DNA of 64,000 nt from contig NZ_JAKRWF010000002.1 of NCBI RefSeq assembly GCF_022352215.1, forward strand, positions 806,001 to 870,000, written 5' to 3'. The stretch comes from Flavihumibacter cheonanensis (GTDB lineage Bacteria; Bacteroidota; Bacteroidia; Chitinophagales; Chitinophagaceae). The position numbers and the translations under genes are program-made. The notes under the pieces were generated by a model. It saw only the letters and a program-made list of their open reading frames with translations, ran no database searches and had not been told where the DNA came from. Of this stretch, positions 32,694 to 35,621 are shown in pieces (the first letter of the stretch is position 1; each line of letters begins with the position of its first letter).

Positions 32694-34394
32694 TTAATAT
32701 TTTTTACCCAACGTTACCGCCAGCCGGTAACGTTTTGTTTTTCCGGAAAGATGCCAGGCATCCACCACGATTATGTACAAACCATTAGCTAAAACCTGCT
32801 GATTATCATTCCTCCCATCCCATCTGAAACTCCCTTTCATTGCACAAATACCATTGTTAATCAACATTCGATGCGGATGTCCCGAGTGGTCAAAGATCCG
32901 GATGCTAACCTGGTATCCTGGTTGTGCAAACTCGTATTTTATTTCGCAGAAGTCCTGGTGGCCATCACCATCCGGACTTATCAACTGTTCATTCAAAAAC
33001 ACCCGGTCCGGATCATCCGGAATACCTGCTTGTGAATTCTCATAACCTGGCGTTCCATAACCGGCATGCGCAGCCGCAGATGCCCAGTTAGAAGCTGACA
33101 AACTGGAAGCTGCCGGATCCCTGCGTTCCAATGAAACATTCTCCGTATTCCGAAGCATCTCATGGTGCCAGGCGGCATCGTATTGAACCTCATCAATCAC
33201 TTGCAGCATCGAATCCAGGAGTACGACTGTTCCTTTATCATTCGGGAAGGAGGGCAGTGAGCCCAATTGTACCAAACTGTTGGGCTGTTTCACCAGGTAT
33301 TGCCTCTGTAACCAGCTCGCATCCGTAGTTACAACCAGGAAATCTCCCGGATAGAAGAAACGGGGACCAGGAACCAATGCTCTGAGACCTGATAAATTTC
33401 CATTGCTGTTTCTGCTGGCAAGCTGCCACCCCCCGAGTTGAACCGGCGCCTTACCAACATGAAATAGTTCAATAAAATCACTGCCTCCAATGATTGGGTC
33501 TGCTAAAATCTCATTTATAATGATGGCTTTCTCCGTAGTATCTGCTAAACCAATTTTTAACTTACTGAACCCCGTCCCCTGCTCAGGATCTTCATCACAT
33601 CCCGGTATAGCAGCTATTTGCAGTGTATAAATTTTTCCTGGCTCAAGGGCGTTTCGCAAATGTAGCAGCAACTCCTGTTGGAAAGGTGCCAGCAGTTCCA
33701 CTTTTTCCACTTCCGGTCCAGCCTCCAGCTTATACAACCCAGCCCGTTCGGCAACCATCCGGTGTATTCTATCGGTGAAGGTTATTCGAATCGTATACGC
33801 ATCCGGGCACCAGGCATGAATTGGATCCACAACGGGTAATGTAGCAGCTGATGGCGAATGCCTGTTGGACCTGCCCGGACTTCCTCCTAACGTATCCAGA
33901 CTGGCATACCAGTTGTTTAAATATCTGCAAGCTTTGTCTTTGTTCACCATTTCCAGGGACCAGCCTCCATCTGCTTTCTCGTCTTTCAATAAAGAAGGAA
34001 GATAGGCGGCTGCAAATACCAGTTCATCCTTTTCATTCAACAAAAACAGGGTATCGCCAGCATTTGAAATTGCAGGGAAAGGGCTTAGACCGATGGTGCG
34101 CCCATAGGAAGTAAAAAGGTTAATCGCCCTGGCCGGACAAAGAATCACTATTTCACCGGGAGCCATACGAACACTATCACCAAACTTTCCGATTGTTCTA
34201 CCATTGGTAAGTTTCCAGCCACTCAAGCTGATCTCAATTGTACTAACATTGGTTAGTTCCACAAATTCTTCAGCAGGTAACCCCACACTTGGTAAAGGAT
34301 CCCCCATGATCTCTGTAATAACAACCGGAAACCCTTGTCCGTAAAGGGTTTCAAAAGAAATTACCAACACCGCACAATGCACCCATTTCCACAT
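32694..34394 (-). CDS. Secreted lamin-tail-domain protein with FlgD-like C-terminus
   Basis: Exported protein of 566 residues. After a signal peptide (VLVISFETLYGQ) come two lamin-tail (LTD) domains, at about residues 20-130 (VVITEIMGDPLPS, EEFVELTN, LSGWKLTNG) and 290-400 (IIINEILADPIIGGSDFIEL, LGGWQLASRNSNG), separated by an SbsA/Ig-like stretch. The C-terminus (VSIRIFDHSGHPHRML, GSFRWDGRNDNQQVLANG, then GLYIIVVDA) is a FlgD/gliding-type Ig module of the kind that ends surface proteins of Bacteroidota. Function unknown; perhaps surface attachment or DNA binding. Divergent from asd. Confidence 0.82.
   Translation of the reverse strand: MWKWVHCAVLVISFETLYGQGFPVVITEIMGDPLPSVGLPAEEFVELTNVSTIEISLSGWKLTNGRTIGKFGDSVRMAPGEIVILCPARAINLFTSYGRTIGLSPFPAISNAGDTLFLLNEKDELVFAAAYLPSLLKDEKADGGWSLEMVNKDKACRYLNNWYASLDTLGGSPGRSNRHSPSAATLPVVDPIHAWCPDAYTIRITFTDRIHRMVAERAGLYKLEAGPEVEKVELLAPFQQELLLHLRNALEPGKIYTLQIAAIPGCDEDPEQGTGFSKLKIGLADTTEKAIIINEILADPIIGGSDFIELFHVGKAPVQLGGWQLASRNSNGNLSGLRALVPGPRFFYPGDFLVVTTDASWLQRQYLVKQPNSLVQLGSLPSFPNDKGTVVLLDSMLQVIDEVQYDAAWHHEMLRNTENVSLERRDPAASSLSASNWASAAAHAGYGTPGYENSQAGIPDDPDRVFLNEQLISPDGDGHQDFCEIKYEFAQPGYQVSIRIFDHSGHPHRMLINNGICAMKGSFRWDGRNDNQQVLANGLYIIVVDAWHLSGKTKRYRLAVTLGKKY
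32710..32742 (+). terminator. Terminator of the PfkB kinase, inside the convergent gene
   Basis: AACGTTACCG (32710-32719) and CGGTAACGTT (32725-32734) form a perfect 10-bp stem around CCAGC, followed by TTGTTTTT. It lies within the last codons of the minus-strand lamin-tail gene, so the same bases encode its C-terminus. Confidence 0.75.
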
Positions 34395-34430
34395 GATCTA
34401 AAACTACTCAGTCCGCCAACTATTATCAAG

Positions 34431-34474
34431 CCCAAATAATTATTTGGGTGAAAATACCCTTCGCATTAATTTCG
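34431..34474 (+). promoter_or_regulatory. asd leader promoter with perfect 18-bp palindrome
   Basis: TTTG (34443-34446) and TAATTTCG (34467-34474) are 20 bp apart and match the Bacteroidota -33 / -7 pattern with one mismatch. The -33 element lies in the perfect palindrome CCCAAATAATTATTTGGG (34431-34448), which could be an operator. The predicted start is just before the leader peptide. Confidence 0.55.
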
Positions 34475-34480
34475 TGCACC

Positions 34481-34543
34481 ATGATTACAATGAAACATAC
34501 TACGAAGACCAAGAAACAGCTCCCACAAGTGGAAGGTGTGTGA
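34481..34543 (+). CDS. asd leader peptide (attenuator)
   Basis: Twenty codons, MITMKHTTKTKKQLPQVEGV, ending in TGA. Eleven of the first twelve residues are Met, Ile, Thr or Lys (4 Thr, 4 Lys, 2 Met, 1 Ile), the amino acids made from the product of the gene that follows. A second ATG at 34490 gives a shorter version with the same Thr/Lys run. It lies 83 bp before asd and directly before an antiterminator/terminator pair. I read it as a ribosome-mediated attenuation leader, not as a functional protein. Confidence 0.75.
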   Translation: MITMKHTTKTKKQLPQVEGV

Positions 34544-34578
34544 TCTCGTATATGTTCACTAAATAACACAGGCCTTCC
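34531..34578 (+). promoter_or_regulatory. Predicted antiterminator of the asd leader
   Basis: GGAAGG-TGTGT (34531-34541), at the end of the leader ORF, can pair with ACACA-GG-CCTTCC (34566-34578), leaving a two-base bulge. This uses up the 5' arm of the terminator. A ribosome stalled at the Thr/Lys codons leaves 34531-34541 free and favours this fold; one that reaches the stop covers it. Confidence 0.65.
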
Positions 34579-34599
34579 CAAGTTGGGAAGGCTTTTTTT
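34572..34599 (+). terminator. asd leader attenuator terminator
   Basis: GCCTTCCCA (34572-34580) and TGGGAAGGC (34584-34592) form a 9-bp stem with loop AGT, followed by seven T. It ends 27 bp before the asd ATG, so it can only make sense as an attenuator. It competes with the antiterminator described at 34531-34578. Confidence 0.85.
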
Positions 34600-34625
34600 A
34601 TAACCAAAATGCAAGCAAAAACGCA

Positions 34626-35621
34626 ATGAAAGTCGCAGTTGTAGGGGCCACCGGACTGGTAGGTACCAAAATGTTACAAGTATTGGCTGAACGGAATTTT
34701 CCCGTTACCGAATTGATTCCAGTAGCTTCTGAAAAATCAGTGGGAAAGGAAGTGGAGTACCAGGGTAAAAAATACAAAGTGGTTAGCATGACAGATGCCA
34801 TCGCAGCCAAACCCGCAGTGGCGCTCTTTTCCGCCGGCGGAAGCACCTCCCTTGAGTGGGCTCCCAAATTTGCAGCTGCAGGTATTACTGTTATCGATAA
34901 CTCTTCCGCCTGGCGTATGGATCCTACCAAACCCCTGGTAGTTCCTGAACTGAATGCAGATATTCTTACTGCCACAGATAAAATCATTGCCAATCCGAAC
35001 TGCTCCACCATTCAAATGGTAGTTGCATTAAATCCGCTTCATAAAAAATATGGTATCAAACGGCTGGTGGTATCCACCTACCAGAGTGTAACAGGTACCG
35101 GTGTAAAAGCAGTTGACCAGTTAATGAATGAGCGCAACGGTATTCAGGGTGAAATGGCTTATAAATATCCGATTGATCTCAATGTCATTCCCCAAATCGA
35201 TGTATTTCTTGACAATGGTTATACCAAGGAAGAAATGAAAATGGTGAATGAAACTAAAAAGATCATGCGCGATGATGCTATCCGTGTTACTGCTACAACG
35301 GTACGGATTCCGGTAATGGGTGGGCACTCTGAAAGTGTGAATGTGGAATTTGCGCAGGACTTCGATCTGAACGAAGTACGTTCTTTGCTTTCTTCTGCAC
35401 CTGGTGTTGTACTGGTAGATGATCCTGCCAACGCACAATATCCGATGCCAAAGGATGCACACGAAAAGGACGAAGTTTTTGTTGGTCGTTTGCGTAGGGA
35501 TGAATCTCAACCCAATACACTGAATATGTGGATCGTCAGCGATAACCTGCGCAAAGGTGCCGCCACCAATGCGGTTCAGATTGCTGAATATCTTCAGCAA
35601 AAAGGATTATTGTCCAGATAA
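34626..35621 (+). CDS. asd: Aspartate-semialdehyde dehydrogenase
   Basis: Enzyme of 331 residues that reduces aspartyl-phosphate to aspartate semialdehyde, the branch point to lysine/diaminopimelate, threonine, methionine and isoleucine. The N-terminal NADP site is VGATGLVGTKML; the catalytic cysteine is Cys126 in IANPNCSTIQ; the substrate-binding region includes STYQSVTGTG and RIPVMGGHSESV. The gene is monocistronic: a leader with attenuator precedes it and a terminator follows. The amino-acid content of the leader peptide matches its pathway. Confidence 0.96.
   Translation: MKVAVVGATGLVGTKMLQVLAERNFPVTELIPVASEKSVGKEVEYQGKKYKVVSMTDAIAAKPAVALFSAGGSTSLEWAPKFAAAGITVIDNSSAWRMDPTKPLVVPELNADILTATDKIIANPNCSTIQMVVALNPLHKKYGIKRLVVSTYQSVTGTGVKAVDQLMNERNGIQGEMAYKYPIDLNVIPQIDVFLDNGYTKEEMKMVNETKKIMRDDAIRVTATTVRIPVMGGHSESVNVEFAQDFDLNEVRSLLSSAPGVVLVDDPANAQYPMPKDAHEKDEVFVGRLRRDESQPNTLNMWIVSDNLRKGAATNAVQIAEYLQQKGLLSR

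Follow-up and report, generated by a model that had tools for sequence, protein, structure and literature searches.

Leader-peptide attenuation is a classical mode of control, known from the trp, thr and his operons of Escherichia coli; the leader of the thr operon encodes a Thr/Ile leader peptide. Aspartate-semialdehyde dehydrogenase (Asd) acts at the branch point from which one route leads to lysine and the cell wall and another to threonine, methionine and isoleucine. In Bacteroidota, the Bacteroid-trp RNA (RF01692) is found at trp operons, for which attenuation was proposed (PMC2864571, PMC6414381), leader-peptide attenuation was inferred upstream of amino-acid operons of Flavobacterium psychrophilum (PMC9723704), and long 5'UTRs of Bacteroides hold small ORFs reminiscent of leader peptides; in the cited passages of the papers found, attenuation in this phylum is mentioned only in outline. 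Outside the phylum, two systems are described in passages that bear on the present case. The trpL transcript of Sinorhizobium meliloti is leaderless, starting at the leader ATG, and is subject to leader-peptide attenuation (PMC7298713); the LEU element of Actinobacteria combines a leader peptide with a pseudoknot and concerns leucine (PMC1262725).

The leader studied here precedes the gene asd in the window, a stretch of 64,000 nucleotides from Flavihumibacter cheonanensis (family Chitinophagaceae). It is real, conserved and of a known kind; that it is a ribosome-mediated transcription attenuator tuned to charged lysyl- and threonyl-tRNA we consider very probable. It is set apart by the likely input of two amino acids, the predicted near-leaderless state of the leader, the nested and crossing order of its strands (A, B, A', C and C' in Table 1), and the reuse across several amino-acid genes. 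Like the E. coli thr leader, it combines a leader peptide with regulatory codons, an intrinsic terminator and an alternative pairing in an aspartate-family pathway; unlike that leader, it contains Lys/Thr codons, serves a stand-alone gene and is predicted to be nearly leaderless, and in place of a 1-2-3-4 ladder its helix A:A' encloses B and crosses B:C. Bacteroid-trp is an amino-acid leader of the same phylum, but concerns Trp only and is matched neither by the window nor by six sister loci. The F. psychrophilum attenuators share phylum, promoter type and a role in amino-acid biosynthesis; they are of another class, and the cited passages contain no asd case and no structure. The S. meliloti trpL leader resembles the asd leader in attenuation and in the start at the leader ATG, which for asd is a prediction of a nearly leaderless transcript, and differs in sensing Trp and in belonging to the Alphaproteobacteria. 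According to the passages cited, which do not describe an intrinsic terminator logic, LEU elements have a crossing layout like that of the asd leader but respond to leucine; by this comparison they appear to be the nearest precedent found for such a layout.

At the gathering score, Rfam gave no match for the window and the six sister loci; at E ≤ 1, positions 34401-34700 gave four sub-threshold hits, namely OmrA-B (26.1 bits, threshold 40), Phe_leader (26.6 bits, threshold 55), bantam and Qrr. Literature searches, with most subscription journals outside their coverage, turned up no stand-alone asd gene controlled by a Lys/Thr attenuator and, for Bacteroidota, neither an asd nor a Lys/Thr attenuator of any kind. 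The first-pass annotation had called such a system not well described in the phylum; for the Lys/Thr asd case these searches agree with that, but attenuators as such have been published for Bacteroidota (Bacteroid-trp and F. psychrophilum). The asd leader offers a concrete and testable control mechanism for the aspartate and histidine pathways in a large family of the phylum. An attenuator that reads two end products together is a simple two-input sensor, and if A:A' indeed gates B:C by crossing it, the same problem has been solved in another way than in the E. coli trp leader.

The asd gene encodes a protein of 331 residues, which scored above the cut-offs of TIGR01296 and NF011456 and also matched PF01118 and PF02774. 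Between asd and a divergent gene on the minus strand (32694-34394) lie a plus-strand promoter, an ORF of 20 codons and an intrinsic terminator (Table 1). The terminator, which the first-pass annotation had placed just before asd, has a stem of 9 bp (34572-34580/34584-34592), a loop of three bases and a T7 tract, from which 26 bases lead to the ATG of asd; it was confirmed in this place and recurs in 41 distinct asd leaders. As no convincing plus-strand gene ends just upstream, the hairpin is not an ordinary 3' terminator. The folding of 34431-34625 is better than that of 200 out of 200 shuffled sequences (z = -3.43).

Table 1. Features of the asd leader region, in positions of the window
Feature	Position	Strand	Basis or remark
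-33 promoter element TTTGG; its TTG starts 23 bases ahead of the TA in the -7 box	34443..34447	+	sequence
-7 promoter box TAATTTCG, one mismatch to the Bacteroidota consensus TAnnTTTG	34467..34474	+	sequence
Leader ORF, 20 codons, MITMKHTTKTKKQLPQVEGV and stop	34481..34543	+	sensing presumably by codons 6-12 or so (H T T K T K K)
Strand A, within the Lys/Thr codons; partner A'	34490..34512	+	duplex analysis, swap and shuffle tests, covariation
Strand B (AGTGGAAGGTGTG, in the final ORF codons); 5' strand of the antiterminator, partner C	34528..34540	+	duplex analysis
Strand A' (TGATCTCGTATATGTTCAC); partner A, B enclosed	34541..34559	+	duplex analysis, swap and shuffle tests, covariation
Strand C, pairing either with C' as 5' arm of the terminator or with B	34570..34580	+	sequence, duplex analysis, covariation
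Strand C', 3' arm of the terminator	34584..34594	+	sequence, duplex analysis, covariation
U-tract of the intrinsic terminator	34593..34599	+	sequence
asd	34626..35621	+	NCBIfam and Pfam HMMs

For the comparison with relatives, asd was located in 38 of 39 genomes, that of the window included; 30 loci were taken from these and 80 more from named records, so that the upstream regions of 110 loci were scanned. A leader ORF together with a terminator was present in 43 loci (20 of the genome set and 23 of the named records), and 41 distinct leaders remained after removal of L004, a near-copy of L001, and L032, which stems from the same record as L006. Their sources are genomes of the family, records of Chitinophagaceae, and records whose names reach no lower than order, class or phylum. 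At L003 and L057 the upstream sequence was too short to judge. In none of the scanned loci with the titles Mucilaginibacter, Pedobacter, Sphingobacterium, Hymenobacter, Flavobacterium, Dyadobacter and Algoriphagus was a leader recognised; the same goes for some titled Sediminibacterium, Chitinophaga and Chitinophagaceae (L070, L077, L080, L097, L104) and for two loci of the family, L023 and L026. The leader alignments comprise 40 rows (A1, without L041) and 39 rows (A2, without L041 and L060).

The 20-codon ORF, for which 11 of the first 12 residues had been noted to be Met, Ile, Thr or Lys, was found as annotated. Its peptide has a core, K-H-T-[K/T]-[R/K]-[T/I]-K-K, which fits 34 of the 41 leaders, with exceptions at every position: counted without the seven divergent peptides (n = 34), the columns hold K 33, H 32, T 32, K/T 33, R/K 27, T/I 28, K 32 and K 30. 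In codons 6-12 of the 41 leaders, Thr and Lys account for 69% and Met and Ile for 7%, and both Thr and Lys occur within codons 5-13 in 39. By geometry, a ribosome stalled in the core would mask A and leave B accessible. Leader length and C-terminus are variable, ranging from 14 to 22 codons. Within codons 5-13, a comparison of 12 leaders from the genus shows variation at none of the nine first, 3 of the nine second and 4 of the nine third positions, which alone is no proof of a coding constraint. The His at codon 6 is conserved as much as Thr and Lys; this conservation presumably serves pairing, and the residue may be sensed. In the window, Met and Ile precede the core, and lysine and threonine are hence the likely inputs. 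The proposal that Met and Ile are sensed in addition fares poorly, these residues being common at codons 1-4, which are variable and come ahead of the stretch in which stalling would mask A; a reservation is codon 10, where the 34 core-aligned leaders have Ile in nine cases and Thr, as in the window, in 19.

A -7 box with at most one mismatch precedes the leader ATG by 5-10 nt in 38 of the 41 leaders, whereas 4.1 were expected from mononucleotide shuffles. The TTG lies at -23 from the box in 31 leaders (one of which, L068, has no good -7 box) and at -22 in four. According to the cited part of a flavobacterial promoter map, the TAnnTTTG box occupies -12 to -5 (PMC9723704); together with the spacing found here, this predicts a 5'UTR of about 1-6 nt. 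For the window, with 6 bp between box and ATG, the sequence predicts a transcript start near 34479 and a 5'UTR of about 2 nt, that is, a nearly leaderless mRNA. The predicted start falls downstream of a hairpin at 34431-34448, which is therefore probably absent from the RNA. Between terminator and asd, an exact TAnnTTTG box was present in none of the 40 leaders examined, and a box with a single mismatch in seven, the one of the window not among them. In four leaders (L021, L042, L043, L051) this interval measures 115-182 bases and contains similar stretches around GTACAAGTGNGNGACGCAA (by eye), perhaps a dispersed repeat. An inverted repeat, GGGTGAAAANACCC, overlaps the -33 element (34446-34459 in the window) and is present in 11 of 13 listed leaders of the genus (not in L013 and L015); L017 carries the look-alike GGATGTAAATATCC. 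The repeat is possibly an operator, or a mere feature of the promoter.

A duplex analysis of the 41 leaders gave the same strand order in nearly all of them: A falls within the Lys/Thr codons, B is found where the ORF ends or directly behind its stop, and A', C and C' come next; A pairs with A', B with C, and C with C'. The 5' arm of the terminator thus doubles as the antiterminator partner of B, and the stop codon lies in or beside B in leaders of 14 and of 20 codons alike, which is a statement of geometry only. A trp-type 1-2-3-4 ladder, with strand 2 common to 1:2 and 2:3, was not found, since A pairs with A' and not with B. Helix A:A', which encloses B, was missing from the first-pass annotation. 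Of the alternative pairing that the latter had proposed, the part GGAAGG (34531-34536)/CCTTCC (34573-34578) can form and is mostly kept in relatives; the part TGTGT/ACACA, reached across a 2-base bulge, is present here but by eye not generally kept.

The mean energy of A:A' in the 41 leaders was -11.55 kcal/mol for the native strands, compared to -8.80 for swaps between species and -7.08 for shuffled A'. The native pair surpassed its mean swap in 35 of 41 leaders and the shuffles (P ≤ 0.05) in 24; in the remaining 17 it was not significant singly, and in L022 the helix is absent. Because A:A' had first been recognised in this very set, it was tested on 20 other leaders chosen by a covariance model, R1, which had been built from 39 leaders with only the terminator paired. 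These 20 were drawn from the 30 best R1 loci, leaving out loci of the first set and L150, the twin of L145; they were picked by sequence similarity and are for this reason not fully independent. Here the values were -13.31 (native), -11.49 (swapped) and -7.95 (shuffled), with the native pair better than the swap in 19 and P ≤ 0.05 in 15 of the 20 cases. In alignment A2, 14 of 17 pairs, namely 5 of 7 in the A:A' core and 9 of 10 in the terminator, changed on both sides, as opposed to 7.5 after shuffling; none of 500 shuffles reached the observed number. As the rows are related, P values in these tests are not independent. Pairing is possible in 73% of the cells for A:A' and in 92% for the terminator. 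A thus coevolves with A', and C with C'. B:C pairs in 83% of the cells and exceeds shuffles at P ≤ 0.05 in 30 of 41 leaders and swaps in 26, with little covariation among asd leaders: on five measures, 41-124 of 500 shuffles scored as high, and a slide by one column scored equally well or better. The letters of B:C differ in L042 and L047 and also in the hisG leaders. The alignment of relatives that had been recommended as a check has hereby been carried out: relatives keep the leader peptide, the terminator and the alternative pairing, and covariation is seen in A:A' as well as in the terminator.

From this arrangement we infer the following course of events, from start site to stalling, termination and read-through. 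Transcription would begin 1-6 nt ahead of the leader ATG, and ribosomes would thus initiate at nearly the 5' end. With Lys and Thr plentiful, the ribosome would reach the stop codon and cover B, C:C' would form, and RNA polymerase would halt before asd. If Lys or Thr is short, the ribosome would stall at about codons 6-12, covering A and leaving B free; A:A' could then not form, B:C would pre-empt the terminator, and asd would be transcribed. If there is no translation, A:A' would trap B in its loop and the terminator would prevail. The earlier idea, in which ribosomes stalled at Thr/Lys codons allow transcription of asd, is supported by the conserved peptide, terminator and alternative pairing and by the covariation of A:A' and the terminator. 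That A:A' acts by excluding B:C we regard as the somewhat better bet. In order to model these states, the RNA was folded up to just past C after deletion of everything 5' of the assumed leading edge of the ribosome, which was set about 14 nt beyond the first base of the A-site codon; the model is nested, i.e. pseudoknots are forbidden. For the window, the pairing probability without ribosome was 0.03 for B:C and 0.97 for A:A'; with the ribosome at codons 4-13, B:C reached 0.97-1.00, and at the stop codon 0.00. Among the 41 leaders, B:C exceeded 0.5 in all 41 at each stall position and in one at the stop codon, outcomes which are partly due to the choice of the bases removed. Without ribosome, B:C exceeded 0.5 in 21 leaders and A:A' in 19, and A:A' as the default is therefore not universal in the nested model.

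These last folds bear on a variant of the same attenuator, in which A:A' and B:C would form side by side in a pseudoknot, with A:A' serving mainly as a pause hairpin to synchronise RNA polymerase and ribosome. In the E. coli trp leader, helix 1:2 is a pause hairpin of this type, keeping RNA polymerase in step with the ribosome. The spacings of the strands (about 15-20, 0-8 and 12-25 nt) would permit an H-type pseudoknot, and the 21 nested folds with ribosome-free B:C fit it as well; the preponderance of A:A' in the window and the coevolution of A with A' speak against it, and we judge this variant improbable, if worth keeping in mind. A further version, according to which mainly lysine is sensed and the Thr codons are kept for A:A' pairing, draws on the dapA leaders, which by eye retain a KHTK-like motif with fewer Thr, and on the location of Thr codons 7-8 within A. 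We think it distinctly unlikely, given that Thr codons vary synonymously in the genus (ACA/ACT at codon 7; ACG/ACT/ACA at codon 8), that Thr accompanies Lys in nearly all leaders, and that codon 10, often Thr, belongs to the extended A but not to the 7-pair core of A:A'.

Two other explanations dispense with attenuation by the ribosome. A conserved structure upstream of a gene of the lysine/threonine pathway could also be a leader that binds a ligand or a protein, e.g. a lysine riboswitch, for which translation would be irrelevant; but Rfam gave no match at the gathering score, half of the leader of about 120 nt is a translatable ORF, and the residues track the gene, with His at hisG, Lys at dapA and lysA and Trp at a trpE-like gene, which makes this explanation very hard to uphold. 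Slightly less credible still is a conserved gene for a small, trans-acting protein with its own terminator, unrelated to the control of asd. Such leader peptides are known, e.g. peTrpL of Sinorhizobium according to the passages cited (PMC7298713), whereas here each of the 30 best loci has asd as the next gene, the complementarity of B and C is kept, and the peptide varies in length (14 to 22 codons) and C-terminus. The lysine- and threonine-sensing attenuator stays the preferred reading.

With E ≤ 0.001, R1 matched 103 of 147 sampled genomes of the family (93 of 130 good ones) and had no match in 44; some matches precede other genes. All of the 30 best-scoring loci have asd immediately behind, in the same orientation; ten of them belong to the first set or closely resemble its leaders. 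Ten weaker matches in the window's own genome (L151-L160) were rejected, since by eye they look like ordinary gene-end terminators. An order-wide search matched 64 of 248 genomes, 15 of them outside the family; the matches in these 15, ten of which were inspected, are all weak (E ≥ 3e-5). At 11 loci outside the family, asd was never the first downstream ORF; ten of these had no recognised gene and one (L294) a Trp-rich leader. Within the sample, the asd form of the leader looks confined to the family.

Among 30 R1 loci in other genomes of the family (L161-L190), the gene is asd in 5, dapA in 6, hisG in 8, lysA in 2, an aminotransferase in 2 and aspartokinase in 1, and 6 loci had no recognised leader gene. 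A further 20 loci comprise the 11 outside the family and 9 within it (2 asd, 1 dapA, 3 hisG, 3 unrecognised). The matches concerned are L162, L164-L166, L168, L170 and L297 for dapA, L172 and L186 for lysA, L182 for aspartokinase, and L173 and L189 for the aminotransferase; one representative per gene was confirmed by HMM, and the other genes were named from their N-terminal sequence. At L173 and L189, a leader of the same layout precedes a class I/II aminotransferase, which in L173 resembles aspartate and LL-diaminopimelate aminotransferases, below the NCBIfam cut-offs. In relatives, Lys-containing leaders (peptides read by eye) precede dapA and lysA; in the window's genus, 14 dapA loci showed by eye no such leader within 210 nt. 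Upstream of hisG, a complete parse was obtained at 24 of 25 loci, not counting L224, L237-L239 and L306; the leaders there are His-rich and share the layout. The hisG leader of the window's own genome (L225, G000:C110:1384828-1388682) reads MKRNSNIHHHHVLLPAR; its TAA stop is part of B (GGTAAGC), and GCTTACC is found in C. In the hisG set, the native A:A' exceeded the mean swap in 15 of 24 leaders, in 10 of the 24 it beat shuffles at P ≤ 0.05, and the own-genome hisG leader was no better than shuffled (P = 0.74); A:A' is thus less firm there. In the relatives, leaders of this design appear to serve histidine and lysine genes as well. Whether Chitinophagaceae share a common cassette, A-B-A'-C-C', nearly leaderless, with the antiterminator nested in a crossing helix, re-coded for Lys/Thr (asd), Lys (dapA, lysA) or His (hisG), and gated by topology or a transient pseudoknot instead of a shared-strand ladder, we consider evenly balanced.

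Upstream of the own thrA-like gene for aspartokinase/homoserine dehydrogenase (L270, G000:C110:145400-149000), a Thr/Ile-rich ORF was noticed, MAFVSTYTTTTTTITTR. In 8 of the 10 thrA-like loci L270-L279, the own one included, a hairpin like CAACCCGYTAAGGGTT surrounds the stop of this ORF, which starts with ATG only in L270 and L271. As these loci have no clear U-tailed terminator, the own thrA was not counted; the ORF is perhaps a leader of another kind. In a different family of the order, the Trp-rich leader of L294 (L294:101-229), which by eye begins MIFNNTNWWWHIQ, precedes a trpE-like gene.
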